Shown in pieces: positions 4,890 through 37,795 of a DNA stretch of 64,000 nt (within the stretch, counting starts at the first letter, position 1; each line of letters starts with the position of its first letter). Source of the stretch: Calliopum simillimum (Eukaryota > Arthropoda > Insecta > Diptera > Lauxaniidae); the NCBI GenBank assembly GCA_951812925.1, contig OX638370.1, forward strand, positions 83,620,004 through 83,684,003, given 5' to 3'. A program made the translations under genes and the position numbers. The notes below the pieces were generated by a model. The model saw nothing but the letters and a program-made list of their open reading frames with translations. It was not told the DNA's origin and did no database searches.

Positions 4890-6745
4890 TGGTGTATAGA
4901 TGTTTTGATTAGTCGAGTGTAGATGGAATGGTGCCGGCAAATATGTACTTCCTAACAGCGAAAAATTTCTATATTCCGGTAGTGCACAAAATGACATCCA
5001 CAGGGATGGAGTTGGATTTTTGTTATGTAAAACTGCAGTAAAGGCAGTTAAGGAATGGAAACCTGTAAACGAAAGTCCCATTTGGTGCAGATTTTGAACC
5101 CCCGCAAGAAATATTACCATCTACCAAGCATACGCGCCCACCGAGTTGGCAGAGAGAGAAGCCAAAGATGAATTTTAGCTACCTGGGTGTCTCTAAACAA
5201 CATCACTTAAAACCAAATCGACCACTTCTGCATTAGCAGAAACTGAAAAGGAAATATTCTGATCGTACGAGTAAGGAGGGCTGCTGACATAAGCTCCGAC
5301 TAAAACTTGCCGCTACTAAACGTCCCAGTGAACAATCTGTGGCAAAAAAAAATTCGACGTGCTTAAGCTAAAGAACGACAAGAATTGCAGGTCTTTCGTT
5401 GAAGAACTTAAAACGGCCCCGATCTATTGTGATGGAAACATTGAAACATCATGGAGTGCCGCTAACGCTGCTTTCTTAAACTCCAGTGAGAAAAGAACTT
5501 GGGTTCCGACTTTCGAACAAGAAACACTGGATGAGCGAGGGAACGTAGTGTCTGGTTGAAAAAACAAGAAACGGGAAAAAACTGAGAGATGACGCTAAAA
5601 CTAGAGCAAAAAAGAACGATGCCGAAAAGGTCTTTAACTCTCTCAATACTCTCAATAAAGAAGTCATGCGTTAGTGCAGACAAGACAAAAGAAGAATGTA
5701 AAACAACCTCGCGAGCGAAGCCGAAAGTGCTGTAAATGCTCAAAATTTCAAGCAACTTTACGATATCACACGCAGATTATCTGGCAGAAAACACCAATAA
5801 AGCCGTTCCATCAAAGACAAAAATGGAAATGTATTTTTGTGACATACTGAATCCCACATCTACCGGCGAAACCGATCACGTGTGTATCAAATCATCACCC
5901 TCAGAATAATTGTCGAACAATGATGCGAGTGGCGTGCTGCACTTTAACTTGTACAGCACTGCCATTGACAGTGTCTCCCGAGAAAACATCTGGGTTTCAC
6001 TGCAAAATTTAGTACGCTTTAAGTACAGTGTGCTACAAAACTGGTTGTTGCCACCGACATTCACCACTAATTCAGGCGTCCGGCAAGGCTGTTTACTATC
6101 ACCATCTCTCTTCCTTATCGTTCTTGATGATATCCTAGATAAAGCTCTGAATAAGGCCAAAAGTGGTATACAATGGAACTTTACCAAACATCTAGAAAAT
6201 CTCGACTATGCTGACGATATTTGCCTTTTATCGTTCAGACACTCAGATATGCAAAACAAGATTGAAGACCTTGTCTTGTAATCGCAGAAGTCCGGCCTAA
6301 AAATCAACTAAAAGCATGAAGCTGAACGCAAACAGGAATGACATCACGTTTAAGGCTGGCAGTGATGATATTGAAAACGTCGACAGCTTCACGTATCTGG
6401 GCAGCATTGTCTCCATGGATGGTGAAGCAAAAGAAGATATAAACTCAAGAATAGCAAAAGTGAAGGGCGCGTTTGCTCAAGTGAACGAAATAGGGTTTTC
6501 AAACGAGGACAAGCTGTGCAAGTGGAAATGGATTGGTCATACTCTCCGGAAACCACACAGCAAAGTTTGTCACCAGGCTCTTGAGTGGAATCCACAAGGC
6601 AGTAGAGGAAGTGGTAGACCCAAAACCAACTGATAAATGTCGTTGGAAAAGGAAATCCAAGAATCGGGAAAATCGTGACAAGAGATCAAAATCATCGTAA
6701 GGGATCGCAACAAACGGAGACGTTTCATCTTGGCTCTATGATCCT
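4890..6745 (+). mobile_element. Decayed non-LTR retrotransposon (endonuclease + reverse transcriptase)
   Basis: On the plus strand, in shifting frames, the parts of a LINE polyprotein appear in order. First come AP-endonuclease blocks: RWNGAGKY near 4920, HRDGVGFLL near 5000, NITIYQAYAPTE near 5115-5145. An in-frame TGA falls at about 5094. The SDHH region near 5290 is damaged by a small deletion. Then come a linker (SKLKNDKN to NAAFLNSSEKT, 5360-5500) and reverse transcriptase motifs: GVRQGCLLSP at 6075-6104 and the catalytic YADD at 6207-6218. The C-terminal part has YLGSIVS near 6390, WIGHTLR at 6529-6549 and WNPQGSRGSGRP to 6626, continuing frameshifted to about 6745. Between the YLGSIVS block and WIGHTLR roughly 100 residues usual for this type are missing. 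The element is dead and truncated at its start. The clade is undecided. Confidence 0.85.
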
Positions 6746-8146
6746 CCTAGGAGTTAATGAAGAATACATACATAAATATAATGCCGACTGAGATGAATAC
6801 AAAAAATAAGATCTGGATTAATAACAAGAGTAGAAAACTGATCGTTTACGCGAAAAGACGCAATAAATTTGTAAAACCAAACTAATATTATATGCATACT
6901 TTTAAAATAACTTCAATAAACATTTTTAAACTAAAACTAAAATAAATCGTAGTGTTCATTGAATCCCACATATATGTGCTCCTACGTACATACTTTCTAA
7001 TTGTTGGCTACCTTTCTATTTGCTTGCTTTTGTTGTCTTCCATATTATCAGTAAAATTTAATATCAAATTTGTGCTCTAATTTTCAGAGGCACTGCAACT
7101 ACACTCCCCTAATTATGTGCATTAGATGGTATGATCCAATAGACAAGCAACCAAAGATGGACAGACGAATAGGCGCACCCCTTGCAAATTAAATGTAAAG
7201 CTACACAACAACAGGTGCCAAGCTGATACTTTTGCGGCAAATAATATTATGGCTCATTGCTTGTGGCGCATGCGCAACTTTGGGCTGTGCTTTTTACTCT
7301 GGATATTTATTATAGTAATTATAATTAAGTGCAAAAAAGAAATTTGTATGTAGGTATTTTCAAAAAGTTTATTGAACCGCATGCATACAACGTAGCTCTT
7401 AAATTTCATAATTAATTGATACTTAAAACATAGTTTTGATACGTAGTAGCTTCGCTTTCAGTTTAACTTACATGTTCAATTTTATAAAGGTATGGACATA
7501 TGTATATAAAGATAATCTCATTCAAAATGTACGACTTACCTGCAAATAAAAGAAAACAAAAATAAAATTTTAAAATAATGAATTCAACATATAAGAATAT
7601 ATAAATAATTTCCATATTTCTTTATCTGTCGTTGAGAAACATTCAAATCAACGGATAAATAGTTAAGTAATGTTCCAGTTGGAAAAGTTAATAAATAAAA
7701 TTAAGTGAGTAAGATTATGGCCATTTGATGCCATTGGCAAAAAAAAGAATAACATTTTAAAGCAACGATGTCTCTAAATTCTAATGAATAGGAAAAACAC
7801 AAGTTCAGATTTGTAAAAAAGAGATCCCAAACATAATCCTAACCTCTATGTAATAAAATCTAAAGACCATGAATAGAAAACTTTGTCAGACTTTCCTACA
7901 GATGGAGATAAAAAATGGACCAACACAGCTATTGACAATATCCAGTTTTCTAAATTTTTTTTTTGTAGTTTTAGATATGGGAATCTGAGCGTAGTTACCA
8001 GTCTTCACATTTTGCGTACTTAAGTCCAAAAACTAAATTATATATGAATTTCGTTCAGATACCTCCAGCATTTCAATGGTTAATAACTCGAATTTTTGTG
8101 ATCTCATTAAAAAAAATTAGAAGTTAAAGTTAAGTGAAAAAGCTTA
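6746..8146. other. AT-rich intergenic or intronic sequence
   Basis: No frame with recognisable protein features and no repeat structure was seen in this stretch. Confidence 0.5.
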
Positions 8147-8150
8147 TTAA

Positions 8151-8371
8151 CCCATTTTCTGCTGCGGTTCGAGTTTTCGAACAGCAAATTTCGTCATCTT
8201 CATACGATTTTTTTTTCTTTGTCGGGATTTAAGTGAAGCTTGATGTTATATACCATATTATACTTAGTTTGTTAAGTTCAGAAAAATACGATTTCAGTCA
8301 AACCTCTTTCCCATCTTGGGCTACAGCTGATGGATAAAAAATTCTTTAAGGGGTGACTTATTTTTAATGGG
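8151..8371. mobile_element. Candidate piggyBac-type miniature element
   Basis: A 221-bp segment is flanked on both sides by TTAA (8147-8150 and 8372-8375), begins CCCATT and ends AATGGG. TTAA duplication and a CCC start are the hallmarks of piggyBac elements. Inside, GTTCGA and TCGAAC form a small hairpin near 8167-8182. The inverted ends are only about 6 bp, so chance is not excluded. Confidence 0.4.
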
Positions 8372-8375
8372 TTAA

Positions 8376-9710
8376 ATGACTCATAAGGAAAGCGTCTCTA
8401 ACAGTTATACTTCTTTCATCGATGGCTTTTGCTGTTGACTTTAAACTAATTGTATTCCCTTCCGAATGACTGTTATATTTCTCATTTATGTTTCAGCCAA
8501 GTATTAGATTTCTTAAATCAGCGTTACATATATTTCACTCTTGTTGATCTTAGTATATTAGAATCTAATCAATGAAGCTTTTTAAAATTTTAAATAAAAT
8601 TAGGTCATTGCCTTATAAATTTTATTAACTTTTAGTTTATAGAATTTCAAATATTTCTGGCCCTAAGTAGCATAAGTGTACAGACATATTCTTAAAATAC
8701 TTTAAAGAAAAACCTGTTACCAGCTCAAGACCAATTAATCTAAATTGATTTGGATAAAGAATTAACTCAAGCGTAAATTTGCAAAAGAAAAAGTAAACTT
8801 TTCGCAAGGTCGTCTCGATTGTTACAATAAATGACAATAACAACAACACCAACTACAACTGCAAAAACGATTTCTATTAAAACAATTAAACAAGACACAA
8901 TATTCAATAAACTTGCACTCGTTTAATTCAAGAGAGATTTTTACTACACCACAATTGCAGCATAAAACGAGATTAGCACCAAATGCTCTACATACAGTAT
9001 TTGAACGTGAATTCTTCAGGGGCTTTGAAACTTTTTCGCATAATCGAAAATAGAATTGATGTGGTTATACTAAAGTTTTAAGAAAGTTCTTCTTTAAGCA
9101 TTACCTCTGGAATGAGACTAGATTTGGCATTTTCCAAATATTTTCAAAAATCTAAATTTTTATGTCAGGAACGACTCGAAGGAAAAAAAAATTACGATTT
9201 TCGTGTTCAACAATCTCAAACTAGTTTAGAAAATATGGTTTGCTAAATATTACAGAAACAAAATAATTATATGTAATCTAGTGAATCCAACTTCGAGGTC
9301 AGAATTGCTCATATACCTCCAGAATTTTGAGATATCCTTGCATGAAGTTGCAAAAGTCGCTGTTTTGAGGCTTATGGTGCAGTTCCAGAGAAAAATGTTT
9401 TCACATTTTTATAATGGTTTCTAGTGGACATAATCCTTCATACCAAATAATACATTTAAACATTTATCGATTGGACCCTTCTCCGAGATAACAGCTTTTC
9501 GATCCCCATACAAAGAACTACTTATTTAGAATTTGTAGAGAAATTTTGATTTATGGCCAAAACAACACTTACAAATTGTATGCCTCTTTTTCCAAGGTAG
9601 AAAACTCGGAAACTGGAAACTTGGAAAAGTTTTAAGGCAAAGTTTAGTAAAGAAGATGACATTGAAAGAAATTGAATTACATCTTTTCCTGGAAATTGTC
9701 ATGAGCAAAA
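8376..9710. other. AT-rich sequence without a supported gene
   Basis: Only short frames without domains. Nothing repetitive was recognised apart from homopolymer runs. Confidence 0.45.
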
Positions 9711-12250: not shown

Positions 12251-12259
12251 AACTTTTCC
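12251..12259. other. Left 9-bp target site duplication of the Foldback-like element
   Basis: AACTTTTCC here is repeated exactly at 26087-26095, immediately outside the two symmetrical ends of the element. Confidence 0.8.
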
Positions 12260-13140
12260 GGCTACGTGAAGTTAGCGCCCAAAAGTCGGGAAAATTAAAA
12301 AAGAGTATTTTACAGGTTTGTCCAAGGAATGTCCACGTTTATCCACCCTTTTTTTTCGTTTGTCCACCCTTAGTTCAAAAATTATTCAAAAAATAAGTTT
12401 TGGCGCTAACTTCACGCTAGCGCCAAAAATTTCAAAATTTTTAAAAAAACCTATTCCAATGGATTGTCCAAGGAATGTCCATGTTTGTCCACCCTTTATT
12501 TTTGTTTGTCCATCCTTAGTTCAAAAGATATTAAAGAAATTAGTTTGTGAGGAACTGTGAACTTGGCGCCAAAAATTCGGAAAAAATTAAAAATTTGTAT
12601 CTTGTTCGTTTGTCCATCGTATGCTTATGTTTATCCACCCTTTATTTTTGTTTGTTCATCTTTAGTTTAAAAGTTTTTTCCAAACAAAAATATTGAATTT
12701 TCAAAAAATTTTTTAAAAAAAAAAGGTTTTTTTTCGAAGATCGTGCTCCATACAAATGTCTAGAGAGTGTTCATGAATATTAGCCTATTTATATCTTTTA
12801 TCTACCCTTGCTTTAAAAGATATTTAAAAATTTAGTTCCTTAAGGACCGTGAACCTGGCGCCAAAAAAATCTTATGGATTGGAAATTTTTATTTAGTTTG
12901 ATACGTCTTCAAAGACTTATGTTTATCCACCCTTTATTTTTGTTTGTCCACCCTTAGTTCTAAAGTTATTTCGGAATCAAAATTTTCTATTTTAAAAAAA
13001 TTGTGTTATCTCTTGCTTTGCTTTAGAGTAAAAATTATAAACCGTTTAAAAGTTAAGTTCGCACTAACATCTTCAAGACGGTAATATCCTCATTATTCTT
13101 TCACAGTTTTTTGAAATTCATATGCAGTATTCTATTCCAA
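12260..13140 (+). repeat. Left arm terminal block with tandem sub-repeats
   Basis: About four degenerate units of roughly 150-290 bp each contain 'tttatccaccctttattttt' followed by 'gtttgtccacccttagttca' (near 12340, 12490, 12630 and 12920). Most units also have GGCGCCAAAAA or GGCGCTAAC. The same block appears inverted at 25200-26086. Confidence 0.75.
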
Positions 13141-15675
13141 AGCTCATATATACTGCGTGTAGGGTATAAAATGATATGTACGGAAGCAGCATGACGTCAT
13201 ATCTTTAAGGAGAAAAAATGCCTGCATGTGGCGCCTCTTTCTTTCCAAAAAGCGCGAAAAAATTATATAGCATATATTTCGGCACATACCAATGATGCCA
13301 TCATACTAACCAAAAAAGCAGTGATGTCAACTTAGTACTTTTTCCACCAGATTTGGTGCTTTTTGAAAAATGATACTCGAACAATAGCTTCAAAAATTTT
13401 GTGGAATTGAATAAAATATTTAAGGGTTTTCATCTAAACACGCAAGTTTCCCATTTGTGCACTTGGGCAATTTTGTGTGATTCATACATATCTGTGGACT
13501 TTTGACAAAACAACCTAACTCGAGATAAGACAATTCTCCACGATTCTAGGCATATATATAAAAGTTAAATGCGCTTCTTTTGGTATAATCACCATATCTC
13601 TATGGTTTCTAGTTCCAGAGATATAAGTCTGTCCCATAACTCACGCTAGATTTGAACTTAGCGCCATTCGAGTAGTGATGTGTTGCTAACCAAAATAATT
13701 CAAAAAGGAGATTCAACTCTGGATCAACATAATTCAGCCACATTACTGCAAAGCAATTAAAATGTATTTTAGCTCGGCTGTATTTAGTTCAAGAAGGTTA
13801 CGACTTTTATTTCCGTGGACTCTCAAATTGATGATGTTTTTTTATTAATCAATACAAAATAAGTCAAAAAAATTAAATTAAATTTTTCGATATCCCGCTT
13901 CGTTTTCGTGAAATCCAGATCTTAAGTTTTTGGCGATCAAGTCAAGTCCTCGATATCTCCAAAGCGAAGTGAGATATCGAAAAATTTTATTAAATTTATT
14001 CGTCTTATTTTGGGTCAATTTATAAAAAGAAACACGGAAATCAAAGAATTCCCTCAAAAAATTTTTCATACGATTTTTTACAATTTAGTTCGAGTGGAAA
14101 ATTGGACAGTTATCGAGATTTTTGCACGTGGAGATGAATACTTTTAGTACATATTCGTAAATATTTTGTATGAGACTTCGTGCATATTCTACTTTGAAGT
14201 GCATACTACTTGCGTGTAGGGTATACACTTGTAAAATGCAGAATGGCATAATATCTTGAATGAGAAAAACGCGCCTAAAACAAGAGAGCATATTTCACTT
14301 CACAAACTAATGACGCCATAATTTTTACCAAAAAGCGTCAAAATTTGAGAGAGCATAGATTACGTCACTTCTCCATGCGCTAAGCGCAATAGTTAGTAAA
14401 TTTTCCCGCCATTATTTTTGCCAATAATCGAGATTTTTTTTCTGGCTATAAGAGTTTAAAAAAACAGTCCTTATGCTCACTGAACGCACGTACTTGAACA
14501 AACAAATACATGTGGTATTTTAACAAAGGCATTTTACTTTTACAATTCTATTTACATTATAATTCTCTGGCCACACTGAATAGAGGTATGAACATATGTA
14601 TGTGCACATTACACTCACAAAATTTTATCAGCAGTGTTTCATTAAAATTTTTTCGCTATTAAAGCAGGTTCAGACCACAGACAAAATGGTCGGTGAACTA
14701 TTTTGTCTGAATCGGGTTTGTCTTTGTGTTTGTCTATGGCGCGGAAATTGTGAAAAAATAAAGTTTTTTTCTTAGCCTTTATCGAAACTGATCGCTCAGA
14801 TTTATTTTTGGAGATATGGGCATTAAAAGTGGCTGATATATCTTTTATGGGCATGACCTCGATTTCCGTGGCCCCTCAGTTTGGCGAGGTTTTCTTATAC
14901 TCAATACAAAATAAGTCGAAAATATTAGATACAATTTTTCCATATCTCGCTTCGTTTTTGAGATATCAAGGCTTTAAGAATAAGAGAAAATTGAAGAAAT
15001 TATAAGAAATGTTAGATTTGACAATGTTTTCACATAAAACGATCTAAAATTACTCGAAAAATCGAGACTTGAATGTTTTTAGAAAGCAAGATAAATTGTA
15101 AAAGGCTTCTTTTGTTATTGTTAATATTGTTGCTGTTTGAGTTCGTGTTGTTGTTATTGGTTTTGGTGGTATTGTTGTTGTCGTTAATGTTCTTGTTTTT
15201 TAAAACTTTCGTTAGTGTTCTTGTATGAGATAATTTGAATTTTCAAAAAATTTAAAAAAAAAACTTTTTTCGAAGAACCTGCTGTATATGAATGTCTAGA
15301 GAGTGTTCATGAATATAAGGCTGTTTTTATCATTTATCTACCATTACTTTAAAAGATATTTAAAAATTTAGTTTCTAAAGGACCGTAAACCTGGCGGCAA
15401 AAAATCAAATAGATTGGAAATTTTTATTTAGTTCGATACGCCATCAAAAACTTATCCACTCTTTATTTTTCTTTGTCCACCCTTAGTTCAAAAGATATTT
15501 CGGAATCAAAATTTTCTATTTTAAAAAAATTGTGTTATCTTTTGCTTTGCTAAAGAGTAAAAATTATAAACCGTTTAAAAGTTAAGTTCGCACTAACATC
15601 TTCAAGACGGTAATATCCTCATTATTCTTTCACAATTTTTTGATATTCAAATGCAGTATTCCTATTCCAAAGTTC
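13141..15675 (+). repeat. Left arm module A
   Basis: The module starts near CTGCGTGTAGGGTATAAAATG and ends just before the next occurrence of that phrase. Its 13860-15600 part is nearly identical to module B (offset about 2.9 kb) and to the right arm (22660-24480). It includes a GTT-rich trinucleotide stretch at 15110-15200 and a weaker echo of the module start at 14205-14280. Confidence 0.75.
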
Positions 15676-18580
15676 ACTGCGTGTAGGGTATAAAATGATA
15701 TGTAAGGAAGCAGCATGACGTAATATCTTTAAGGAGAAAAAATGCCTACATGTGGCGCCTCTTTCTTTCCAAAAAGCGCGAATAAATTATATAGCATATT
15801 TTACGGCACATACCAAAAAAGCAGTGATGCCAACTTGGTGCTTTTTCCACCAGATTTGGTGCTTTTTCAAAAATGATACTCGAACAAATAGCGAGTTAGT
15901 GCTTGCTGTGTTCTTTAGTGCTTTTTCTCAATTGCAACGACACTATAAAAGTTGTTCCTATCGCGAATTGGCATTCAAATTAACAGGTATTGCAAACACA
16001 AAAATAAAGGAACAATAGCTTTTAAAATTTTGTGGAATTAAATAAAATATCTAAGGGTTTTCATCTAAACGCGGAAGTTTCCCATTTGTGTACTTGGGCA
16101 ATTTTGTGTGCTTCATAGATATCATATCTCTTTTGACAAAACAACCTAACTCGAGATAAGACAATTATCCACGATTATAGCCATAAATATAAAATTTAAA
16201 TACGGTTCTTTTCATATAATCACCATCTCTCCATGGTTTCTAGTTCCAGAGGTATAAGTGTGTCCCATAATTCACGCACGATTTGAACTTAACGGCATTT
16301 GATCAGTGATGTGTTGCTAACCAAAATAAGAAAATAATTTAACAGCTGACAGTTGAAGATTAGTAAAAATGTATTAAAAGAGGAAATGTATTTTAGCTCG
16401 GCTGAAAAGTTGACAATTGCGAATTAGGTTGTTTTGTCAAAATGCCACAGATATATATAATGAACGCAGTCTCGAATAATATGTGCGATTTGTGAAGTTG
16501 ATGAAATTTGGCCAAATGTCTAAATTAAAATGCTGAATAAAGCGAACTATTTCAATTATTTGAAGAAAGCGAATTGTCAACACTTGAATTCTTCGGAAAT
16601 CATAATGATTACTGAGTCGCACTATTAGCTGCGCAAGTTTGAGTTACGATTTGAGCGCGATTTTATCCATGTATTTAGTTCAAGATGGGTACGACTTTGA
16701 TTTCCGTGGACTCTCGAATTGATGATGTTTTTTATAAATCAAGGGTAGACAAAATAAGTCAAAAAAAATTAAATTAAATTTTTTGATATCCCGCTTCGTT
16801 TTCGTGAAATTGAGAACTAAAGTTTTAAGGGATCAGGTCAAATCCTCGATATCTCCAAAGCGAAGTGAGATATCGAAAAATTTTATTAAATTTATTCGTC
16901 TTATTTTGGGTCAATTTATAAAAAGAAACACGGAAATCAAAGAATTCTCTCAAAAAATTTTTCATACGATTTTTTACAATTTAGTTCGAGTGGAAAATTG
17001 GACAGTTATCGAGATTTTTGCACGTGGAGATGAATACTTTTAGTACATATTCGTAAATATTTTGTATGAGACTTCGTGCATATTCTACTTTGAAGTGCAT
17101 ACTACTTGCGTGTAGGGTATACACTTGTAAAATGCAGAATGGCATAATATCTTGAATGAGAAAAACGCGCTAAAAACAAGAGAGCATATTTCACTTCACA
17201 AACTAATGACGCCATAATTTTTACCAAAAAGCGTCAAAATTTGAGAGAGCATAGATTACGTCACTTCTCCATGCGCTAAGCGCAATAGTTAGTAAATTTT
17301 CCCGCCATTATTTTTGCCAAAAATCGAGATTTTTTTTCTGGCTATAAGAGTTTAAAAAAACAGTCCTTATGCTCACTGAACGCACGTACTTGAACAAACA
17401 AATACATGTGGTATTTTAACAAAGGCATTTTACTTTTACAATTCTATTTACATTATAATTCTCTGGCCACACTGAATAGAGGTATGAACATATTACACAT
17501 TACACTCACAAAATTTTATCAGCAGTGTTTCATTAAAATTTTTTCGCTATTAAAGCAGGTTCAGACCACAGACAAAATGGTCGGTGAACTATTTTGTCTG
17601 AATCGGGTTTGTCTTTGTGTTTGTCTATGGCGCGGAAATTGTGAAAAAATAAAGTTTTTTTCTTAGCCTTTATCGAAACTGATCGCTCAGATTTATTTTT
17701 GGAGATATGGGCATTAAAAGTGGCTGATATATCTTTTATGGGCATGACCTCGATTTCCGTGGCCCCTCAGTTTGGCGAGGTTTTCTTATACTCAATACAA
17801 AATAAGTCGAAAATATTAGATACAATTTTTCCATATCTCGCTTCGTTTTTGAGATATCAAGGCTTTAAGAATAAGAGAAAATTGAAGAAATTTTAAGAAA
17901 TGTTAGATTTGACAATGTTTTCACATAAAACGATCTAAAATTACTCGAAAAATCGAGACTTGAATGTTTTTAGAAAGCAAGTTAAATTGTAAAAGGCTTC
18001 TTTTGTTATTGTTAATATTGTTGCTGTTTGAGTTCGTGTTGTTGTTATTGGTTTTGGTGGTATTGTTGTTGTCGTTAATGTTCTTGTTTTTTAAAACTTT
18101 CGTTAGTGTTCTTGTATGAGATAATTTGAATTTTCAAAAAATTTAAAAAAAAAACTTTTTTCGAAGAACCTGCTGTATATGAATGTCTAGAGAGTGTTCA
18201 TGAATATAAGGCTGTTTTTATCATTTATCTACCATTACTTTAAAAGATATTTAAAAATTTAGTTTCTAAAGGACCGTGAACCTGGCGGCAAAAAAATCAA
18301 ATAGATTGGAAATTTTTATTTAGTTCGATACGCCATCAAAAACTTATCCACTCTTTATTTTTCTTTGTCCACCCTTAGTTCAAAAGTTATTTCGGAATCA
18401 AAATTTTCTATTTTAAAAAAATTGTGTTATCTTTTGCTTTGCTAAAGAGTTAAAATTATAAACCGTTTAAAAGTTAAGGTCGCACTAACATCTTCAAGAC
18501 GGTAATATCCTCATTATTCTTTCACAATTTTTTGATATTCAAATGCAGTATCCTATTCCAAAGTTCATAAATCCTGCGTA
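15676..18580 (+). repeat. Left arm module B
   Basis: Second, direct copy of the module. It differs from A by extra sequence at 15890-16010 and 16340-16670, by a rewritten stretch near 16810-16850, and by scattered single-base differences. It ends at the Helitron insertion point. Confidence 0.75.
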
Positions 18581-19640
18581 TCTATATATATAAAAATTAC
18601 TGTGTGTCTGAAGCATTATCACTCAGAAACCATTCGTCCAATTGAGCTGAAAATTTAGAAATGAGTATATATTAGGTATGGGAATGTTTTTATGCTATAC
18701 ACGAAGTTTTCCGAAGACCACCCGAAGGCTTAATAGTCAAAACGAAGAATATCTAGGTACACTAGAGGAAAAATACCTATGGCAGCTTTCAACAAGTTTT
18801 AATTGATAGTTTTTTGGAATACCCGAAGTTTGCCGAAGGTCTCCCGAGGGCTTCATAGTCAAAACGAAGAATATCTAGATATACGAGAGGGAAAAAATCT
18901 ATGGCGAACTGTCAACAAGCTTTAAGTGATAGTTTTTTGTGACACCCGAAGGTGTCCGAAGGTCACCCGAAGGTTTCCGAAGACCACCCGAAGGCTTAGT
19001 AGTCAAAACGAAGAATATCTAGGTACACTAGAGGAAAAACATCTATGGCAAGCTTTCAACAAGTTTTAACTGATAGTTTTTTGTAACACCGAAAGTTTGC
19101 CGAATGTTACCCGAGGGCTTCATAGTCAAAACGAAGAATGTCTAGGTATACGAAAGGAAAAAAATCTATGGTGAACCATCATTAAACTTCAATTGATAGT
19201 TTTTTGGAACACCCGATGGTTCCCGAAGGTCGCCCGAAGGCTTCATAATCAAAACGAAGAATATCTTGGTACACGAGAGGGAAAAAATCTACGGTAAACT
19301 ATCAACAAACTTTAACTGATAGTTTTTTGGAATACCCGATGCTTCCCGAAGGTCACCCGAAGGCTTCATAGTCAAAACGAAGAATATCTAGATGTACTAC
19401 AGGAAAAACACCTAAGGCAAACTATCAACAAGCCTTAATTGAAGGTTTTTGGGACACTCCAGCTATGCCATTGCCAAGTTTTAAGATGGTTTGAAATGAA
19501 ATTAACTTTCTCAAAATACCTCAATTTTTATTGGTGACGTGGCAGTGGCGTAAATCAAAATTTTATCCCTGTATACTTTCTAAGCTATTGGAAAAAAAAA
19601 CAAAACAAACATGCCTAGCGAAGCGGGCAAAGAAGGCTAG
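18581..19640 (+). mobile_element. Helitron-like insertion in the left arm (1060 bp)
   Basis: It starts TCTATATATA right after an A and ends GGCTAG right before a T, with no target duplication. It carries the 'gcgaagcgggc' hairpin-type region just before the 3' end. These are Helitron traits (5' TC, 3' CTRR, insertion between A and T). The right arm at 22645-22665 reads GCGTATAGGGTATAAAATG on the minus strand, which is the uninterrupted site. The interior has about six degenerate units of roughly 120 bp (18710-19440) built on 'acccgaaggcttcatagtca' and 'aaacgaagaatatctag'. No Rep/helicase frame, so it is non-autonomous. Confidence 0.85.
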
Positions 19641-20173
19641 TAGGGTATAAAATGATATGTAAGAAAGCAGCATGACGTAATATCTTTAAGGAGAAAAAAT
19701 GTCACCACAATTGTGGCGCCTCTTCTTACCTTATGCTTATGTTTATCCACCCTTTAGTTTTGTTTGTTCACCTTTAGTTTAAAAGTTTTTTCAAACAAAT
19801 ATATTGAATTTTCAAAAAATTTTCAAAAAAAAAAAAGGTTTTTTTTCGAAGATCGTGCTGTATTGGAATGTCTAGAGAGTGTTCATGAATATAAGGCTAT
19901 TTTTATCTTTCATCTACCCTTGCTTTAAAAGATATTTTGAACCTTGCGCCAAAAAATCTAATAGATTGGAAATTTTTATTTAGTTCGATAGGCCTTCAAA
20001 GACTTATGTTTATTCACCCTTTATTTTTGTTTGTCCACCCTTAGTTCAAAAGTTATTTCGGAATCAATATTTTCTATTTTAAAAAAATTGTGTTATCTCT
20101 TGCTTTGCTATAGAGTAAAAATTATAAACCGTTTAAAAGTTAAGTTCGCACTTACATCTTCAAGATGGTAATA
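19641..20173 (+). repeat. Left arm, partial module after the Helitron
   Basis: The arm resumes with TAGGGTATAAAATGATATG and pairs with parts of 21806-22650 on the right arm. It stops at GGTAATA, where another Helitron-type start (TCTATATATT) is joined. Confidence 0.7.
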
Positions 20174-20480
20174 TCTATATATTAATACGCAAGACAAAAA
20201 TTTGTCCATCTTTTTTTACTTTATTAGAAATGCACTTCAACTTTGAATTATACACTATTAGAAAAGTTTTTAAGTGTAGATGTGCACAAAGTTAAAATTA
20301 TTTTAATTTCTGCATTTTAACTAGGTAAAATTAAAAACAAATTTTTCAATATTCACAACAACAAAATACATGGTCACATAAGCTAGAAAAAAGTTTAAGT
20401 ACAAAGAGAAAGAAGAAAACTGACACATGTTTTTTTTTTGCTTTGCTTTCGTTGCGTTGATGACACCAGGGATGACTCAG
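20174..20480 (+). mobile_element. Truncated Helitron-like fragment in the loop of the Foldback-like element
   Basis: It begins TCTATATATTAATACGCAAG after an A, exactly like the elements at 30264, 37769 and 48933, and follows them for about 250 bp. The 3' end is missing. At 20481 the sequence jumps to right-arm-oriented module DNA, so a deletion removed the Helitron end together with part of the arm. Confidence 0.7.
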
Positions 20481-21805
20481 TTAGGTTGTTTTGTCAAAAG
20501 TCCATAGATATGTATGAAGCACACAAAATTGCCCAAGTGCACAAATGGGAAACTTCCGCGTTTAGATGAAAACCCTTAAATATTTTATTCAATTCCACAA
20601 AATTTTAAAGCTATTGTTCCTTTATTTTTGTGTTTGTAATACCTGTAAACTTTTATAGTGTCGTTGCAATTGAGAAAAAGCACTAAAGAACACACCAAGC
20701 ACTAACTCACAATTTGTTTGAGTATCATTTTTGAAAAAGCACCAAATCTGGTGGAAAAAGCACCAAGTTGGCATCACTGCTTTTTTGGTTAAAATGATGG
20801 CATCATTGGTATGTACCGTAATGTATGCTATATAATTTATTCGCGCTGTTTGGGAAGAAAGAGGCGCCATATGTAAGCATTTTTTCTCCTTAAAGATATT
20901 ACGTCATGCTGCTTCCTTACATATCATTTTATACTCTACACGCAGGGTGTATGAACTTTGATACTTTGTGCGATTTGTGAATTGATGAAATTTGGCCAAA
21001 TATCTAAATTTAAATGCTGAATAAAGCAACTTTTCAGCCGAGCTAAAATACCTTTTAATTGCTTCCAGAGTTGAATCTCCTCTTTCAATACATTTTTACT
21101 AATCTTCAGCTGTCAGCTGTCAAATTATTTTCTTATTTTGGTTAGCAACACATCACTGCTCGAATAGCGCTAAGTTCAAATCTTGCGTGAATTATGGAAC
21201 ACACTTATATCTCTGGAACTTGAAACCATAGATATATGGTGATGATACCAAAAGAAGCGTATTTAAATTTTATATTTATGGCTAGAATCGTGCAGAATTG
21301 TCTTATCTCGAGTTAGGGAAACTTCCGCGTTTAGATGAAAGCTCTTAAATATTTTAATCAATTCCACAAAATTTTTAAAGCTATTCTTCATTTATTTTTG
21401 TGTTTGCAATACCAGTAAATTTGAGTGCCGGTTCAAGATAGAAACAACTTTTATAGTGTCGTTGCAATTGAGAAAAAGCACTAAAGAACACACCAAGCAC
21501 TAATTCACAATTTGTTCGAGTATCATTTTTGAAAAAGCACCAAATCTGGTGGAAAAAGCACTAAGTTGGCATCATTGCTTTTTTGGTTAGTATGATGGCA
21601 TCATTGGTATGTGCCGTAATGTATGCTATATAATTTATTCGCGCTTTTTGGTAAGAAAGAGGCGCCATATGGAAGCATTTTTTCTCCTTAAAGATATTAC
21701 GTCACGCTGCTTTCTTACATATCATTTTATACCCTACGCGCAGTGTATATTAACTTTGGAATAGAGTACTCCATATGAATTTCAAAAAACTGCAAGAATA
21801 ATGAG
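20481..21805 (-). repeat. Loop-proximal module copies without a left-arm partner
   Basis: Two partial module copies in minus orientation: 20481-20950 and 21318-21760. Both contain 'aaatctggtggaaaaagcac' and the ATATCATTTTATA phrase. The second has lost about 70 bp between its TTAGG and GGGAAACTTCC words relative to the first. Confidence 0.65.
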
Positions 21806-24800
21806 GATATTACCATCTTGAAGATGTAAGTGCGAACTTAACTTTTAAACGGTTTATAATTTTTACTCTATAGCAAAGCAAGAGATAACACAATTTTTTT
21901 AAAATAGAAAATTTTGATTCCGAAATAACTTTTGAACTAAGGGTGGACAAACAAAACTAAAGGGTGGATAAACATAAGTCTTTGAAGGCGTATCGAACTA
22001 AATAAAAATTTCCAATTTATTATATTTTTTTGCCGCCAGATTCACGGTCCCTTAGGGAATAAATTTTTAAATATCTTTTAAAGCAAGGGTAGATAAAAGA
22101 TAAAAACAGGATTATATTCATGAACGCTTACTAGACATTCATATACAGCACGATCTTCGAAAAAATAATCTTTTTTTTTTGAAAATTTTTTGAAAATTCA
22201 ATATTTTTGTTTGAAAAAAACTTTTAAACTAAAGGTGAACAAACAGAACTAAAGGGTGGATAAGCATAAGTCTTTGATAACGTATCGAACTAAATAAAAA
22301 TTTCCAATCTATTAGATTTTTTGGCGCCAGGTTCACGGTCCTTTAGGAACTAAATTTTAAAATATCTTTTATAGCAAGGGTAGATAAAAGATAAAAATAG
22401 CCTTATATTCATGAACACTCTCTAGACATTCCAATACAGCACGATCTTCGTAAAAAAACCTATTTTTTTTTTGAAAATTTTTTGAAAATTCAATATATTT
22501 GTTTGAAAAAAACTTTTAAACTAAAGGTGAACAAACAAAACTAAAGGGTGGATAAACATAAGCATAAGGTAAGAAGAGGCGCCACAATTGTGCAGACATT
22601 TTTTCTCCTTAAAGATATTACGTCATGCTGCTTTCTTACATATCATTTTATACCCTATACGCAGGGTTTATGAACTTTGGAATAGGAATACTGCATTTGA
22701 ATATCAAAAAATTGTGAAAGAATAATGAGGATATTACCGTCTTGAAGATGTTAGTGCGAACTTAACTTTTAAACGGTTTATTATTTTTACTCTTTAGCAA
22801 AGCAAAAGATAACACAATTTTTTTAAAATAGAAAATTTTGATTCCGAAATATCTTTTGAACTAAGGGTGGACAAAGAAAAATAAAGAGTGGATAAGTTTT
22901 TGATGGCGTATCGAACTAAATAAAAATTTCCAATCTATTTGATTTTTTTGCCGCCAGGTTTACGGTCCTTTAGAAACTAGATTTTTAAATATCTTTTAAA
23001 GTAATGGTAGATAAATGATAAAAACAGCCTTATATTCATGAACACTCTCTAGACATTCATATACAGCAGGTTCTTCGAAAAAAGTTTTTTTTTTTAAATT
23101 TTTTGAAAATTCAAATTATCTCATACAAGAACACTAACGAAAGTTTTAAAAAACAAGAACATTAACGACAACAACAATACCACCAAAACCAATAACAACA
23201 ACACGAACTCAAACAGCAACAATATTAACAATAACAAAAGAAGCCTTTTACAATTTAACTTGCTTTCTAAAAACATTCAAGTCTCGATTTTTCGAGTAAT
23301 TTTAGATCGTTTTATGTGAAAACATTGTCAAATCTAACATTTCTTATAATTTCTTCAATTTTCTCTTATTCTTAAAGCCTTGATATCTCAAAAACGAAGC
23401 GAGATATGGAAAAATTGTATCTAATATTTTCGACTTATTTTGTATTGAGTATAAGAAAACCTCGCCAAACTGAGGGGCCACGGAAATCGAGGTCATGCCC
23501 ATAAAAGATATATCAGCCACTTTTAATGCCCATATCTCCAAAAATAAATCTGAGCGATCAGTTTCGATAAAGGCTAAGAAAAAAACTTTATTTTTTCACA
23601 ATTTCCGCGCCATAGACAAACACAAAGACAAACCCGATTCAGACAAAATAGTTCACCGACCATTTTGTCTGTGGTCTGAACCTGCTTTAATAGCGAAAAA
23701 ATTTTAATGAAACACTGCTGATAAAATTTTGTGAGTGTAATGTGTAATATGTTCATACCTCTATTCAGTGTGGCCAGAGAATTATAATGTAAATAGAATT
23801 GTAAAAGTAAAATGCCTTTGTTAAAATACCACATGTATTTGTTTGTTCAAGTACGTGCGTTCAGTGAGCATAAGGACTGTTTTTTTAAACTCTTATAGCC
23901 AGAAAAAAAATCTCGATTATTGGCAAAAATAATGGCGGGAAAATTTACTAACTATTGCGCTTAGCGCATGGAGAAGTGACGTAATCTATGCTCTCTCAAA
24001 TTTTGACGCTTTTTGGTAAAAATTATGGCGTCATTAGTTTGTGAAGTGAAATATGCTCTCTTGTTTTTAGCGCGTTTTTCTCATTCAAGATATTATGCCA
24101 TTCTGCATTTTACAAGTGTATACCCTACACGCAAGTAGTATGCACTTCAAAGTAGAATATGCACGAAGTCTCATACAAAATATTTACGAATATGTACTAA
24201 AAGTATTCATCTCCACGTGCAAAAATCTCGATAACTGTCCAATTTTCCACTCGAACTAAATTGTAAAAAATCGTATGAAAAATTTTTTGAGGGAATTCTT
24301 TGATTTCCGTGTTTCTTTTTATAAATTGACCCAAAATAAGACGAATAAATTTAATAAAATTTTTCGATATCTCACTTCGCTTTGGAGATATCGAGGACTT
24401 GACTTGATCGCCAAAAACTTAAGATCTGGATTTCACGAAAACGAAGCGGGATATCGAAAAATTTAATTTAATTTTTTTGACTTATTTTGTATTGATTAAT
24501 AAAAAAACATCATCAATTTGAGAGTCCACGGAAATAAAAGTCGTAACCTTCTTGAACTAAATACAGCCGAGCTAAAATACATTTTAATTGCTTTGCAGTA
24601 ATGTGGCTGAATTATGTTGATCCAGAGTTGAATCTCCTTTTTGAATTATTTTGGTTAGCAACACATCACTACTCGAATGGCGCTAAGTTCAAATCTAGCG
24701 TGAGTTATGGGACAGACTTATATCTCTGGAACTAGAAACCATAGAGATATGGTGATTATACCAAAAGAAGCGCATTTAACTTTTATATATATGCCTAGAA

Positions 24801-26086
24801 TCGTGGAGAATTGTCTTATCTCGAGTTAGGTTGTTTTGTCAAAAGTCCACAGATATGTATGAATCACACAAAATTGCCCAAGTGCACAAATGGGAAACTT
24901 GCGTGTTTAGATGAAAACCCTTAAATATTTTATTCAATTCCACAAAATTTTTGAAGCTATTGTTCGAGTATCATTTTTCAAAAAGCACCAAATCTGGTGG
25001 AAAAAGTACTAAGTTGACATCACTGCTTTTTTGGTTAGTATGATGGCATCATTGGTATGTGCCGAAATATATGCTATATAATTTTTTCGCGCTTTTTGGA
25101 AAGAAAGAGGCGCCACATGCAGGCATTTTTTCTCCTTAAAGATATGACGTCATGCTGCTTCCGTACATATCATTTTATACCCTACACGCAGTATATATGA
25201 GCTTTGGAATAGAATACTGCATATGAATTTCAAAAAACTGTGAAAGAATAATGAGGATATTACCGTCTTGAAGATGTTAGTGCGAACTTAACTTTTAAAC
25301 GGTTTATAATTTTTACTCTAAAGCAAAGCAAGAGATAACACAATTTTTTTAAAATAGAAAATTTTGATTCCGAAATAACTTTAGAACTAAGGGTGGACAA
25401 ACAAAAATAAAGGGTGGATAAACATAAGTCTTTGAAGACGTATCAAACTAAATACAAATTTCCAATCCATAAGATTTTTTTGGCGCCAGGTTCACGGTCC
25501 TTAAGGAACTAAATTTTTAAATATCTTCTAAAGCAAGGGTAGATAAAAGATATAAATAGGCTAATATTCATGAACACTCTCTAGACATTCGTATGGAGCA
25601 CGATCTTCGAAAAAAAAACCTTTTTTTTTTTTAAAAATTTTTTGAAAATTCAATATTTTTGTTTGGAAAAAACTTTTAAACTAAAGATGAACAAACAAAA
25701 ATAAAGGGTGGATAAACATAAGCATACGATGGACAAACGAACAAGATACAAATTTTTAATTTTTTCCGAATTTTTGGCGCCAAGTTCACAGTTCCTCACA
25801 AACTAATTTCTTTAATATCTTTTGAACTAAGGATGGACAAACAAAAATAAAGGGTGGACAAACATGGACATTCCTTGGACAATCCATTGGAATAGGTTTT
25901 TTTAAAAATTTTGAAATTTTTGGCGCTAGCGTGAAGTTAGCGCCAAAACTTATTTTTTGAATAATTTTTGAACTAAGGGTGGACAAACGAAAAAAAAGGG
26001 TGGATAAACGTGGACATTCCTTGGACAAACCTTTAAAATACTCTTTTTTAATTTTCCCGACTTTTGGGCGCTAACTTCACGTAGCC
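21806..26086 (-). repeat. Right arm of the Foldback-like element
   Basis: Inverted partner of the left arm. 25200-26086 pairs with the terminal sub-repeats and 22660-25190 with the module. 21806-22650 holds the 'tttatccaccctttag' sub-repeats, with one more unit than the left side. The module part mixes variants typical of left modules A and B. Confidence 0.75.
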
Positions 26087-26095
26087 AACTTTTCC
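26087..26095. other. Right 9-bp target site duplication of the Foldback-like element
   Basis: AACTTTTCC, identical to 12251-12259. Removing the element and one copy would leave a simple pre-insertion site reading TTCATGC-AACTTTTCC-GCCTCTG. Confidence 0.8.
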
Positions 26096-26717
26096 GCCTC
26101 TGAAAAAATTATAAAAAATAATTGAGCACTGTACACAGAAAGAATTGGAGTAATCGACATTGGTTCAAAAGTTATATCCATACACTAAGGTATGTGTACC
26201 AAATTCGGCATGTTAAGGTACTCTCTACTTCTAGAACAATTCCTAGCCATACAACTCAATTTTGAGATCGGATATATGATTTTCATAAGGATTGATTTAT
26301 CCGGAGTCGATTAGTGCTAAATTTGAGCATCGTAGCCCTTGTACTATGATAATTCTTTATAATTTTTGAAACACTGCATTTGTCCCTAATTCTAGACTAA
26401 AATTTTGCGTTGAACCTTAAGCATGTGGACCCAACTCCGTGCTAACTTACAATTTGCTATATTTTCTTTGAACAACCATCTATAATATCAAGTTTTTTCA
26501 TTTTAAATATTTTAAAATTTATTTATCTTTAATTTTGCAAACATAATGTTCTTCTTAAATTTAAGAAACATAACAAATTAACGAGTCAACTAAATAAAAA
26601 CAGCCACGTAATTAGGTTCACTTGCACAAATTCATGTACGTTATTCCGGCAGTAAAAAATTCATAGCATCTTTGAAATTTGTTAGAGAATTCTTCACATT
26701 GTATAGAATTATTTATA
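26096..26717. other. AT-rich sequence without a supported gene
   Basis: No frame or repeat recognised between the Foldback-like element and the mariner at 26718. Confidence 0.5.
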
Positions 26718-27895
26718 ACGGGTGAGCAAATAAGAGCTTCCTACTTTGTTATCTAAATAAAATACATAAAAATCAATGTATTAATGCAAATATGTATCTG
26801 GAATGATAGTTCGGTTCCTACAACTCAATGTTTAAAAATTATTTTGTTAAAATGTTACCCATGACTAATTCTTAAATAGTTCATTCTGTGGGTCCAATTT
26901 TCGACAACTCTTTCGAGCATATCGGCCAGTGTTCCTTGAATAACACGAGTTATGTTGGTTTCCAAAGCGGCAATAAATTCAGGTTTGTTGACATAAATAA
27001 GTGATTTAACATATCCCCAAAGAAAGTAATCCAATGGCGTAAAATCACATGATCTTGGTGGCCAATTAACAGGAGCATTTCTTGAGATGATGTTTTCATC
27101 GAACGTTGCCCGCAATAAAGCGATTGTTTCTTCAGCTGTATGGCATGTTGCGCCATCCTGTTGAAACCAGAGGTCGGCTACACTAATATCTTAAATTTTT
27201 GGCAAAAAAAAAATAAATTGATCATTGCTCTGTAGCGAGAACCATTGACCGTAATATGGACTCCAACCGTTTTGAAGAAATACGGTCCGATGATGTCTCC
27301 TGCCCTAAAACCACACCAAACAGTACATTTATCGGGTTGCATTGGAAGCTGTTGGATTACTTCTGGTTGTTCATCGGCCCGAATACGGCAATTTTACTTG
27401 TTAACGTAGCCTTTCAACCAGAAATGAGCTTTGTCACTAAACACAATTTTTCGATAAAATGATGGATCAATATGAAGTTGTTGTAAGGCCCATAGACCAA
27501 AATGTAAACGTATACCAAGATCAGCCGGCTTCAATTCTTGTACGAGCTGTACTTTATAGGCCTTCAGACCAAGATCACGCCTCAAGATACGCCACAATAA
27601 TCCATAAGAGATGCCCAAAACCTGAGATCGGCAACGAATGGATTATTGACGGTTTTTAAGAACTTTCTCTGATACTGCAGCAATATTCTCTAAGTTGCGG
27701 CCTCTATGCACTCTAGTTGAATGATGAATGTTCAATAGTGTAAAATTGCTTCAAAATCTGCTGATGGTGGTACAAATAGTGCGCTCAGTTGGACGATCAT
27801 AACGACCAAAATGATGTTAAAGAACAAGCCATTTGACACATAACAGCTGTCAAAACAACCCACTTGGAAAAGGGACCTCGTATTGGATCACCCTT
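26718..27895 (-). mobile_element. Degenerate mariner element, DD41D type, copy A
   Basis: 1178 bp between two TA dinucleotides (26716-26717, 27896-27897), with imperfect inverted ends of the form GGGTGA-C-AATA. Transposase remnants on the minus strand: helix-turn-helix end LGISYGLLWRIL, KAYKVQLVQELKPAD, first catalytic D in FSDKAHF, second in QQDGATCHTA, third in CDFTPLD. I count 41 residues between the second and third D, which fits the DD41D ('rosa') mariner group. The glutamate usual after the first D is lysine. Frames are broken several times between the motifs, so no active enzyme is made. Confidence 0.85.
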
Positions 27896-32260: not shown

Positions 32261-34394
32261 CATTTTGGTATTCATTAATAACTTATACTGGCTTAAGTCG
32301 ATGCCAAAAGCTGTAACAAATTTTTTACTATGTTGATATCAGAATTTTCAAATAGGATATGATAGGATTCACCATTCCTTAATCTTTGAAATTTTTTAAA
32401 AAGATATAAACTTGATTTAAGTGTTTTAAAACAAATTCTATACGCCGCCAACGAGATCACTACCACTTACAAAACTACTCAAGCTCAATGGTAGCAAAAG
32501 TTAGACTTTTTGCAATATCTCGTTAAGATGACTTCAACAGAAAAATGTTGGTGTATAATTTTATAGCTCATAAAATTTTCTATAGAAAAGTCGTGTTAGT
32601 TGTTTTTGTGCAAACTATACCTTATGAGATATTCTAGCTAGCTTTCTTCATTCTCTTAAGTTTTTCTAACGCAATCTCATAGGTAACTTTCCCCAATATT
32701 TTGATTTATTTTTTCTACGCCCATGTTGCTGTAAGTGCGTATCTACACATGAAATGACGTAAACAAACGCACATGTTGCTACCGTAAACAAACATTAATC
32801 GCGCGACACAAAATTTCATTTAACTTAAAAAGTTGCGCTGGCGCTAACTGAATATATTCCATTTTTGGCTAATCGAGCGGGAAATTCATGCAAGGCACAA
32901 AAGACCAAAAAAAAAGATGGCAACGCTAACCAACATATCGCAATGTAACACAGGAAAAAATTATGAATTTTTGTGAGTGAAAGTGAGGAAACGGTGCGCG
33001 CCGCCGCAATGATTTGCTGGTTGGTTGATTGCCTGCATTAAATGATCGTACGTTCGTTCGTTTGCTTAGTTGATTGGTCGTCGCGCGATCGGTCAAATGG
33101 TACTTTGCTTTTGCTTGCTAACTAACTGACAGCCTGACTCATTGACTGACTGACTGACTGCTGGCCATTACATTGACAGACTGCTGATTGTTTTGCTGTG
33201 GCTCTTGCGCGCGCTATAGGCGACATTTGATGAATGGTGCGTTGTATGCGTACGTACGCTTGTCACCACTGGCAGTAGTGACATGAATTTTGTGCTGACA
33301 ATCATCAGCAGCGACATTTTGTCAAGCAACGTGCTTTTTTCTCTTGAATGTTTATAAACATGTGGTAGCCACCACCAACGTTATTATGGCATAAATAAAA
33401 TTTAATTCATTTTGATTTTAATTACGAAAATTCAAACTGATTTCGTTGTTTTGAAATAAAATAAATTTCTTTTTGCCAAAACTCATAAGTAATTCAACAA
33501 AATTAATTGTCAAGTAATAAGTTCAACGCAAGATTTATCAAATTTACTACAGAAGCATAGAATCTTCATTAATTTGTCCATATTGATCAAAAATAATGAA
33601 TTTTCCTATAAAAAAAAGTTAAATATTAAACAGTTTAATACCTTATTAATGGACGCATTTCATAGAGGAGAAAAAACCCCAACAACTCCAATATAACAGC
33701 AACCAAATGTTGTAAAATTAAGTTTTTGTATTGAAGGTCAAGTTTAATTTATGTACGAAATCACAGTCGCAGTAGCAACAGCCCATCACTGAAAAATTGA
33801 TTGTTGTTGATGTTGTTGCAGTAGTTGATTGATTTTTCATAGTTTAACGCTCTTTTAATTGTTGCACAATTTAAAAGCCGAAAAAACAAAACAATCAAAA
33901 ATTCCAAAAATGAGTGTTGAAAATGATAAGCTGCATAGTCATGATTGTAACCTAAACCTAATTTTGAGATTGATTTGCTGCCGCTTTAATTGATTTTTTT
34001 TTTTTATTTTATTTTTGTTGCCGGTTTTTCTTCAACAATTTTGAGTTTAATAAACTGTGACGAAAGATTTGTATAAAAATATTTAAATTTTCTTAAATTT
34101 GAAATTTATTTTGATAACAAATTACTTGTTATTAGCATATATTGATTAGACTGATTTAAAAACAAAAAATTCGAGCAACGATCTGCTGTATGCCCCAAAT
34201 TGACTTGACCTTTGTGTTTAGTATTTAATCGTTCGCTTACGCCTTTGTAAAGAAACTAAATGTTTTGAACTGCACAACGCTACCTCAATTTTCTTCCATT
34301 TGTGAGGAATGGTATACTAAAGTGCCTTCACAAATGAGAATTAGTAAAATGCATAGGTTTCAAAAAAATTTATCAAAAAATGTGCAGATAAACA
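32261..34394. other. Unique-looking sequence; GC-richer core at 32.7-33.35 kb
   Basis: No supported coding frame. 32700-33330 is less AT-rich and holds GTTCGTTCGTTTGCTTAGTT and a GACT run (33130-33165), the CGCGCGC word at 33208, and GGTGCGCGCCGCCGC at 32993. This could be a host promoter or regulatory region. 33361-34394 is AT-rich without visible features. Confidence 0.35.
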
Positions 34395-35690
34395 AAAATT
34401 GTCGAAAAACGTGATGTCAAAAAGTGTCGTCAAAAGGAGCTTCGAAAAATGTGTCACCAAAAAGTGTATCAAAAATAAGCCGTAAAATGCTTCGACATAA
34501 ACGTGCCGAAAAATATATCGCCAATAAAAGTATCGAAAAATGTGCCACTAAAAATGTGTCGCAAAAAGAAGTGTCAAAAAATGTGTCGCCAAAAGGAGCT
34601 TTGAACAATGTGTGACCAGAAACGTGTCGAAAAAAGTGTTGCCATAAAATATATCGAAAATGTGTCGCCAAAAACGTACCGAAAAATATATCGCCCAAAA
34701 AAGTGTCAAAAAATTTGTCGCCAAAAAAAAGTGTCGAAAAAATTGTCGCCAAAAAATGTATCGTAAACTGTGTCGCCAAAACGTGCCGAAAAATGTATTG
34801 CCAAAAAAAGAGTCAAAAAATAAGTCACCAAAAAAGATGAGAATTGTGTCACCAAAAAATCTAAAAACTTATCGCCAAAAAAAAGTATCCAAAATGTGTA
34901 AAAAAATTTGTCACCAAAAAAAAGTGTCGCCAAAAGATGTATTGTAAACTGTGTCGCCAGAAATGTGCCAAAAAATGTATCGCCAAAAAAAGAGTCAAAA
35001 AATGTGTCACCAAAAATCTAAAAACGTATCGCCAAAAAAAAGTATCCAAAATGTGTCAAAAAAAGTGTCAAAAAATTTGTCACCAAAAAGAAGTGTCAAA
35101 AAATGATGAAAATTGTGTCACCAAAAAATCTAAGAACGAAAATGTGTCGTAAACTGTGTCGCCAAAAATGTGCCGAAAAATGTATCGCTAAAAGAAGTGT
35201 CAAAACATGTGTCGCCAAAAAATGTGTCACCAAAAAATTATAAAAATTGTGTCACCAAAAAATATAAAAACGTATCGTCAAAAAAAAAGTATCCAAAATG
35301 TGTCAAAAAAGGTGTCAAAAAATTTGTCGCCAAAAAAAAGTGTCGCCAAAAAAAATGTTGCCAAAAAATGTGTTGCCAAAAAATGTGTCGCCAAAAATTG
35401 TGTCACCAAAAAATCTAAAACATATCGCCAAAAAAGTATCCAAAATGTGTCAAATAAACGTTGAAAAATGTGTCGTCAAAAGTGTCAAAAAAAATGTTGC
35501 CAAGATATATAGCAAAAAATGTATCAAAAAATGTGTCGCCAGAAAAGGTGTCCAAAAATTTGTCGTCAAAAAATATATAACCAGAAAAAGTGTCAGTGCA
35601 TTGAAAAATGTGTCAAAAATGGTGACAGTGTGTCGCCAAAAATAGTTACAAAAATTTATCGCCAAAAAATGTGAAGCTAAATTTTGTCTT
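34395..35690. repeat. 1.3-kb minisatellite built on GTGTCGCCAAAAAAT
   Basis: Units of about 15-22 bp with GTGTC(G/A)CCAAAAA recur throughout. There is a second level of order. The phrase 'aacgtatcgccaaaaaaaag' with variants starts near 34865, 35020, 35270 and 35415, and 'gtaaactgtgtcgcc' occurs near 34765, 34945 and 35150. The Lys/Gln/Cys-rich plus frames and Phe/Thr/Leu-rich minus frames are by-products. Confidence 0.8.
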
Positions 35691-37256: not shown

Positions 37257-37769
37257 CTAGCTTTTTTGCCCGGCGTTGCTCGGTTTTTGTTTTATTTTTC
37301 ACTGGGCTGTTCGCAGAAAAGACAACAAACTGCTTTATTTCACTTATTCCACAAATATTATTAATAAAAATATGTTTTTAAGCAAGATAGCACTGAGGAA
37401 AGCTAATACAGAAAACTATTTTTACTAGAATCGCAAAATGGTCAAAATGTATTCAATAATTTTGGTACATTTTGGACAGTGAAACGAAAAGAAAACAAGA
37501 ACATGAAATCAGTGTCAGTCAGCTTTTTGTTCATCACTTTGTGCTGTATCCTCTTTTCACCTCTGTGTGATCGCGTATTTTGTCGTTGTTAAAATTGAAA
37601 AATTTGCACTTAATTTTATCTGGCTTAATGGCAAAATATAAAAATAATTTTAACTTTGTGCACATTTACATACAAATACCTTTCTAGTGGTTTATTATTC
37701 AAAGTCGTGCTCCACTTCTAACATAGTAAAAAAGGTAGGACAAATTTTTTTTGTGTATTAATATAAAGA
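37257..37769 (-). mobile_element. Complete short Helitron-like element (513 bp)
   Basis: On the minus strand it starts TCTTTATATTAATACAC after an A (37769) and ends CGGGCAAAAAAGCTAG before a T (37257). The end is preceded by the compact 'gagcaacgccgggc' region typical of Helitron 3' termini. It is the only full-length member of the TATTAATACGCAAG family in the window. No coding capacity. Confidence 0.75.
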
Positions 37770-37795
37770 TAAAATAATGTTCCAAAAACTGATGC

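Follow-up and report, generated by a model that had tools for sequence, protein, structure and literature searches.

A large, probably non-autonomous foldback-type element in Calliopum simillimum and a predicted DDE-USP fusion protein encoded between the same ends in sister copies

The window analysed here is a 64-kb stretch of a large contig (OX638370.1) in the 690-Mb genome of the lauxaniid fly Calliopum simillimum and contains, at 12260..26086, a foldback element of 13,827 bp. The element is flanked by a 9-bp target-site duplication, AACTTTTCC, at 12251..12259 (left) and 26087..26095 (right), for which 9 bp is the only register that fits, 8 and 10 bp giving no match. Its terminal 20-mer, GGCTACGTGAAGTTAGCGCC, begins at 12260 on the + strand and the complement occupies 26067-26086; the symmetry of the ends, described as 20 bp in an earlier sequence-only reading, extends further, the two ends being identical over their outermost 53 bp. 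Comparison of the window with itself places a left inverted arm at 12260..15763 (+) and a right inverted arm at 22574..26086 (-), which align (12260-15763 against 26086-22574) with 99.0% identity over 3,518 columns, and self-matches of at least 100 bp cover 87% of the element in inverted and 81% in direct orientation. The exact duplication and the inverted arms of several kilobases built of sub-repeats (3.5 kb, with tandem units inside), both reported in that reading, are therefore real. The longest stop-to-stop frame is of 101 amino acids, and tblastn with the family's protein, described below, gave no trace of transposase coding in this copy at E-values up to 0.01; the copy, having no recognisable gene, is therefore taken as non-autonomous, in agreement with the earlier proposal.

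The terminal 20-mer has 43 exact occurrences in the genome and is present at 74 places when up to two mismatches are allowed, against none for the reversed 20-mer used as a control. Facing ends were paired by reading the list of ends, which assigned 56 of the 74 ends to 28 pairs and left 18 single. Both ends are exact in 13 pairs, the other 15 carrying mismatches at one or both ends; a perfect 9-bp duplication flanks 12 of the former and 11 of the latter (23/28), and the 23 perfect duplications all differ from one another in sequence. Thus, other copies with the same termini, a Foldback-type structure and 9-bp duplications of their own, for which the sequence-only reading had advised a search, are present elsewhere in the genome. 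Elements with perfect duplications range from 3.2 to 14.7 kb in length, and the 28 pairs together span 385 kb (0.06% of the genome). When the genome was searched with a query of the terminal 1,101 bp, at least 41 matches were returned (40 of 320 candidates scored), a figure to be read as a lower bound on copy number. Among the pairs with imperfect duplications, the flanks agree at 8 of 8 positions in C2_16 and at 8 of 9 in C1_80 (42.7 kb), and no flank duplication is present in C1_105 or in C2_71.92 (26.6 kb) and C2_74 (44.5 kb), both of which are doubtful pairings. The facing ends of C1_80 (C1:80373363-80416102), with 9-bp flanks different at one base, may perhaps delimit a giant copy carrying nested insertions or cargo.

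Arms that are 99% alike are open to misassembly, and the structure could in principle represent an inverted segmental duplication or an assembly artefact. However, the 28 end pairs, 23 of them with a 9-bp duplication of their own, and the differences in the arms between copies argue against this explanation, which because of the duplications is considered exceedingly improbable. The foldback family is real and transposing, with modular and shuffled arms, and is, for all its size, a genome parasite of an ordinary kind; since the duplications are perfect and the arms 99% alike, the data suggest that it has moved recently.

Eleven copies were read in whole, namely the window element and 10 of the 12 remaining pairs that have two exact ends. 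The end motif TGAAGTTAGCGCC occurs three times at each terminus of the window element: on the left, an outer copy at 12267..12279 (+, element position 8), an inverted inner copy at 12402..12414 (-, element position 143), which forms an end-within-end hairpin, and a third, direct copy with 2 mismatches at 12558..12570 (+, element position 299); on the right, the outer, inverted inner and third copies are at 26067..26079 (-), 25932..25944 (+) and 25776..25788 (-), respectively. With two mismatches allowed, the motif is found at element positions 8 (+) and 143 (-) in 11/11 whole-read copies and at position 299 or 300 (+) in 10/11, the exception being C2_88, and the right ends mirror this layout. 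Each terminus is thus a small foldback nested in a large one, and the triple-motif arrangement would be a plausible layout for transposase binding. Tandem units of 146 bp occupy the left terminus at 12318..12673 (+, 2.4 copies) and the right terminus at 25671..26080 (-, 2.8 copies). Further inside, an arm module at 13779-15676 recurs directly at 16670-18567 (97.8%), and the repeated arm module at 16670..18581 (+) is an inverted copy of 22657-24565 (98.2%); 292-bp tandem units lie between the arm modules at 21923..22562 (-, 2.2 copies). Two segments have no match in the ten other whole-read copies, the middle segment at 18582..19639, which contains a minisatellite of about 123 bp, and a second segment at 20176..20478, which consists mostly of a repeat also present at 37483-37771 and 48686-48934. 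The minisatellite, of the CCGAAGG type, is found at 18601-19455 in the middle of the element and, inverted and 75% alike, outside it at 39019-39839.

The arms appear to be exchanged between copies. In a tree of the 22 terminal 1.1-kb arms of the eleven copies, in which 6 of the 19 inner branches are well supported, two groups are separated at 100/100 and C3_43 has an arm in each; its own arms are 93.4% alike, and one of them matches an arm from a different copy at 99.45%. The two arms are mutual best matches within their own copy in 4 of the 11 copies, and an arm of another copy is closer than the copy's own in the other 7, the window element being among these by a margin of only 0.01 points. 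The right side of the window element also shares 5.6 kb with C1_105 at 98.7% identity. The mosaics with perfect duplications would have arisen either by transposition of elements that were already mosaic or by conversion of the arms of inserted elements. C1_105 (C1:105845214-105856367; L011, L012) has exact ends without a target duplication and is a candidate site of inter-copy recombination. When its flanks were compared by eye with the other end flanks that were read, no recombination partner was seen, and a rearrangement is unproven. The earlier suggestion that the element could drive rearrangements thus has no more than a hint from this exact-ended copy.

Among the whole-read copies, frames longer than 125 amino acids are present only in C2_103, which has frames of 957 and 183 amino acids and a Tc1-type frame of 333. 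The first two align with nearly the full length of the relative P0001, separated by a break, and this copy is therefore interrupted. The Tc1-type transposase frame (L018) is nested in C2_103 at element positions 7781-8779 (-). A whole-genome search with the protein gave at least 51 matches (48 of 100 candidates scored), and the family's own gene, at 75% identity or more, is represented by seven loci among the matches listed. Six of the seven (C2_103, C1_69, C1_77, C3_49, C2_71.92 and C2_74) lie between facing family ends, perfect 9-bp duplications being present around the first four and absent from the last two; the remaining locus, at C5:78.03 Mb, contains many stops and lies more than 2 Mb from any listed family end. 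As the end pairs make up 0.06% of the genome, chance is excluded in practice as the explanation of six loci in seven. The search for a transposase gene bounded by the same ends, advised from the letters alone, thus yielded a candidate gene for a predicted DDE protein. We infer that this protein is the family's transposase, and the window element probably moves with the help of the sister-copy enzyme. Related genes of about 25-31% identity have open frames in the same genome, and other families of the lineage may therefore be active. They include four 1188-aa open frames with at least 98% identity among their DNA sequences, L070 (C5:44.43 Mb) and L071 (C2:40.47 Mb) among them; a search of this 1188-aa family for terminal repeats revealed none that were clear. 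A minisatellite of about 311 bp, with 12 or more units, is located behind the gene in this family (L070, L071). A 1069-aa family is a further relative with an open frame in this genome.

The N-terminal half of the protein is a predicted DDE transposase, with a predicted fold of the DDE RNase-H type with a helical insertion, near IS256-type enzymes and nearest to the ISCth4 transposase. The C-terminal half is predicted to be a ubiquitin-specific protease (USP) domain and shows the USP fold in its predicted structure. In a protein alignment of 27 rows (A1), the USP triad is conserved among the rows reaching each column (Cys 26/26, His 19/19, Asp 18/19). The DDE residues have the spacing D67D217E in this alignment; the second D-E gap of Mutator-like elements (MULEs) is mostly 120-135, three clades having 151-172 and a further one 214 (PMC13359780; here and below, the literature is cited for the passages available from each paper). 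The Pfam MULE/Transposase_mut profiles gave no match in the 27 A1 rows at E-values up to 0.05, Pfam UCH gave none in the family's own protein, solved structures gave none by sequence up to E 10, and a protein search with the alignment of relatives returned no named family. The relative P0018 carries the precomputed labels PF26216 and PF26217, and a Pfam scan of it gave no match. A FLYWCH domain is present in the transposase of many Phantom members; Pfam detected none in the family's protein or in the 27 A1 rows. The best viral fold match is an uncharacterised bracovirus protein, and Phantom-like genes have been reported in bracovirus-type viruses.

An alternative is that an unrelated transposase, such as a classical MULE or Phantom enzyme, moves the ends and that the DDE-USP gene is a captured passenger. 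The lack of any intact own-gene copy among those found and the presence of the gene in just 1/11 whole-read copies are in its favour, but six of the seven gene loci lie inside the ends with varying amounts left, as for a decaying autonomous form, and both the conserved residues and the predicted fold mark the protein itself as DDE-like; we regard this alternative as unlikely. The window element is instead probably a non-autonomous foldback-type cut-and-paste transposon moved in trans by the predicted DDE-USP protein of sister copies. Several results weigh against this interpretation. Five of the 28 end pairs lack a perfect 9-bp duplication, and all seven own-gene loci are interrupted or partial, with no active source seen. 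Predicted structures and conserved residues are the main basis of the DDE and USP assignments: Pfam transposase profiles do not match the protein or the relatives scanned, and Pfam UCH matches only 3 of the 27 A1 rows (best E 0.0011), with E-values of 0.0023 and 0.003 for two open frames of related genes in this genome, both below the curated cut-off (for L066, E 0.0023 and 18.0 bits against 23.9). Eight of the 27 rows do not extend to the His and Asp columns and thus do not show the USP domain in full, and P0004 is aligned in these columns but has no recognisable box there, which reduces the convincing His boxes to 18/19. A scan of viral contigs with the protein alignment gave no relative, and a role of the protease in transposition is a proposal.

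In structure the family is a foldback element, having long inverted repeats made of sub-repeats, an arrangement that varies among copies and duplications of about 9 bp in 23/28 pairs, and its mechanism is probably of the Mutator type. The Mutator-like affinity raised in the sequence-only reading is supported by the duplication length, which falls within the 8-11 bp given for MULE groups (PMC6446971), and by the predicted protein fold, but not by any Pfam MULE profile match. A Galileo/P-type foldback element, belonging to the P superfamily, is held to be highly improbable. Among the described groups the nearest is Rehavkus of Repbase, set against the family by description only and with membership not proven, which is an outgroup of the MULE tree with a PHD finger ascribed to it (PMC6446971) and has 9-bp duplications and tandem repeats in its termini (PMC6446971, PMC10218199); Rehavkus-1_TC, for instance, is 9.5 kb long with 164-bp units in inverted termini (PMC10218199). 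The family resembles it in the 9-bp duplication, the single-gene element and the tandem repeats in inverted termini, and differs in its reshuffled arms of several kilobases, the absence of a PHD finger match and the predicted USP domain, which goes unmentioned in the Rehavkus descriptions available from the two papers (PMC6446971, PMC10218199). The family could accordingly be a plain member of Rehavkus with nothing new in its transposase, an explanation that concerns the name and is compatible with movement by the DDE-USP protein. The described duplications and terminal tandem repeats agree with it, as does the minisatellite behind the gene in the related 1188-aa family, whereas Pfam finds no PHD finger in the proteins scanned at the thresholds used and the 3.5-kb arms are longer than the 26-400 bp reported for that group; we consider this explanation rather doubtful. 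Since no PHD finger was found and the comparison is by description and not by sequence, the family is not filed as Rehavkus.

With FB of Drosophila and Tetris of D. virilis the family shares duplications of 8-10 bp, non-coding copies of variable structure and long inverted repeats of modular build that contain tandem units, of 146 bp in the present family and of about 220 bp in Tetris, but no transposase was found for Tetris (PMC4079207), whereas here a candidate helper is encoded in elements bounded by the same ends. NOF was not listed by name in the protein searches, the comparison with FB/NOF being by description only. The Tm1 Mutator/Foldback family of root-knot nematodes, the transposase of which is described as Phantom-like, likewise has 9-bp duplications, composite inverted repeats and, in one group of its copies, a putative transposase (PMC3169594), but the present protein lacks a FLYWCH match and has a predicted USP-type C-terminus. 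The joining of a transposon protein to a ubiquitin or SUMO protease is known from Ginger1 and from ULP1-bearing Mutator elements (PMC2836005), and from Helitrons with OTU or VTD deubiquitinase domains, active deubiquitinases from transposons being reported (PMC9741609). The proteases reported on transposon proteins include Ulp1, OTU and a C19 domain in Trichomonas (PMC2836005); the nearest case in the literature is the Trichomonas protein with transposase_11 and peptidase C19 cited there. The domains in these cases are Ulp1, OTU, VTD or, on a transposase_11 core, C19, whereas in the present protein the predicted USP (C19) domain is joined to an ISCth4-like DDE core. In the literature searched, which contained few subscription papers and not Repbase, no foldback or Mutator transposase bearing a USP domain was found, a result that speaks only weakly for novelty. 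What stands out in the system is the predicted DDE-USP fusion, the structure being otherwise of the known foldback kind.

In the mechanism proposed, the terminal motif would be bound by the DDE half, which would bring the two ends together, cut them and join them to target sites staggered by 9 bp, and the C-terminal half would act as a USP-type cysteine protease stripping ubiquitin or SUMO from substrates that are perhaps the transposase, chromatin or repair factors at the break. The arms would lengthen, shorten and be swapped through hairpin-prone repair and inter-copy recombination, and the window copy would be mobilised in trans. More broadly, insect foldback elements may be moved by a distinct and widespread transposase lineage with an ISCth4-like DDE core fused to a USPL1/Ubp8-like ubiquitin/SUMO protease, a generalisation offered tentatively and with slightly more doubt than belief. 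If it is true, repair or chromatin at the cut may be the target of the protease, and such an action could be part of the reason why long hairpin-forming arms grow and are reshuffled; if the protease half is active, the USP-type fusion would join the Ulp1, OTU and VTD domains for which a link between transposition and ubiquitin/SUMO signalling has been suggested (PMC2836005, PMC9741609). For foldback elements the autonomous partner has often not been identified, and the occurrence of the ends and a candidate enzyme in the same elements makes the mechanism testable here.

The window also contains features away from the element. A fragment of a reverse transcriptase (Pfam RVT_1) is present at 5910-6278, and a DUF4817 helix-turn-helix fragment at 40853-41287 overlaps a repeat shared with 26715-27825 (84%). 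A degenerate minisatellite of the AAAAAGTGTCGCC type lies at 34361-35673, and a 2.1-kb array of the hexamer TATAAG, with 358 copies at 98% match, extends over 55159-57312.
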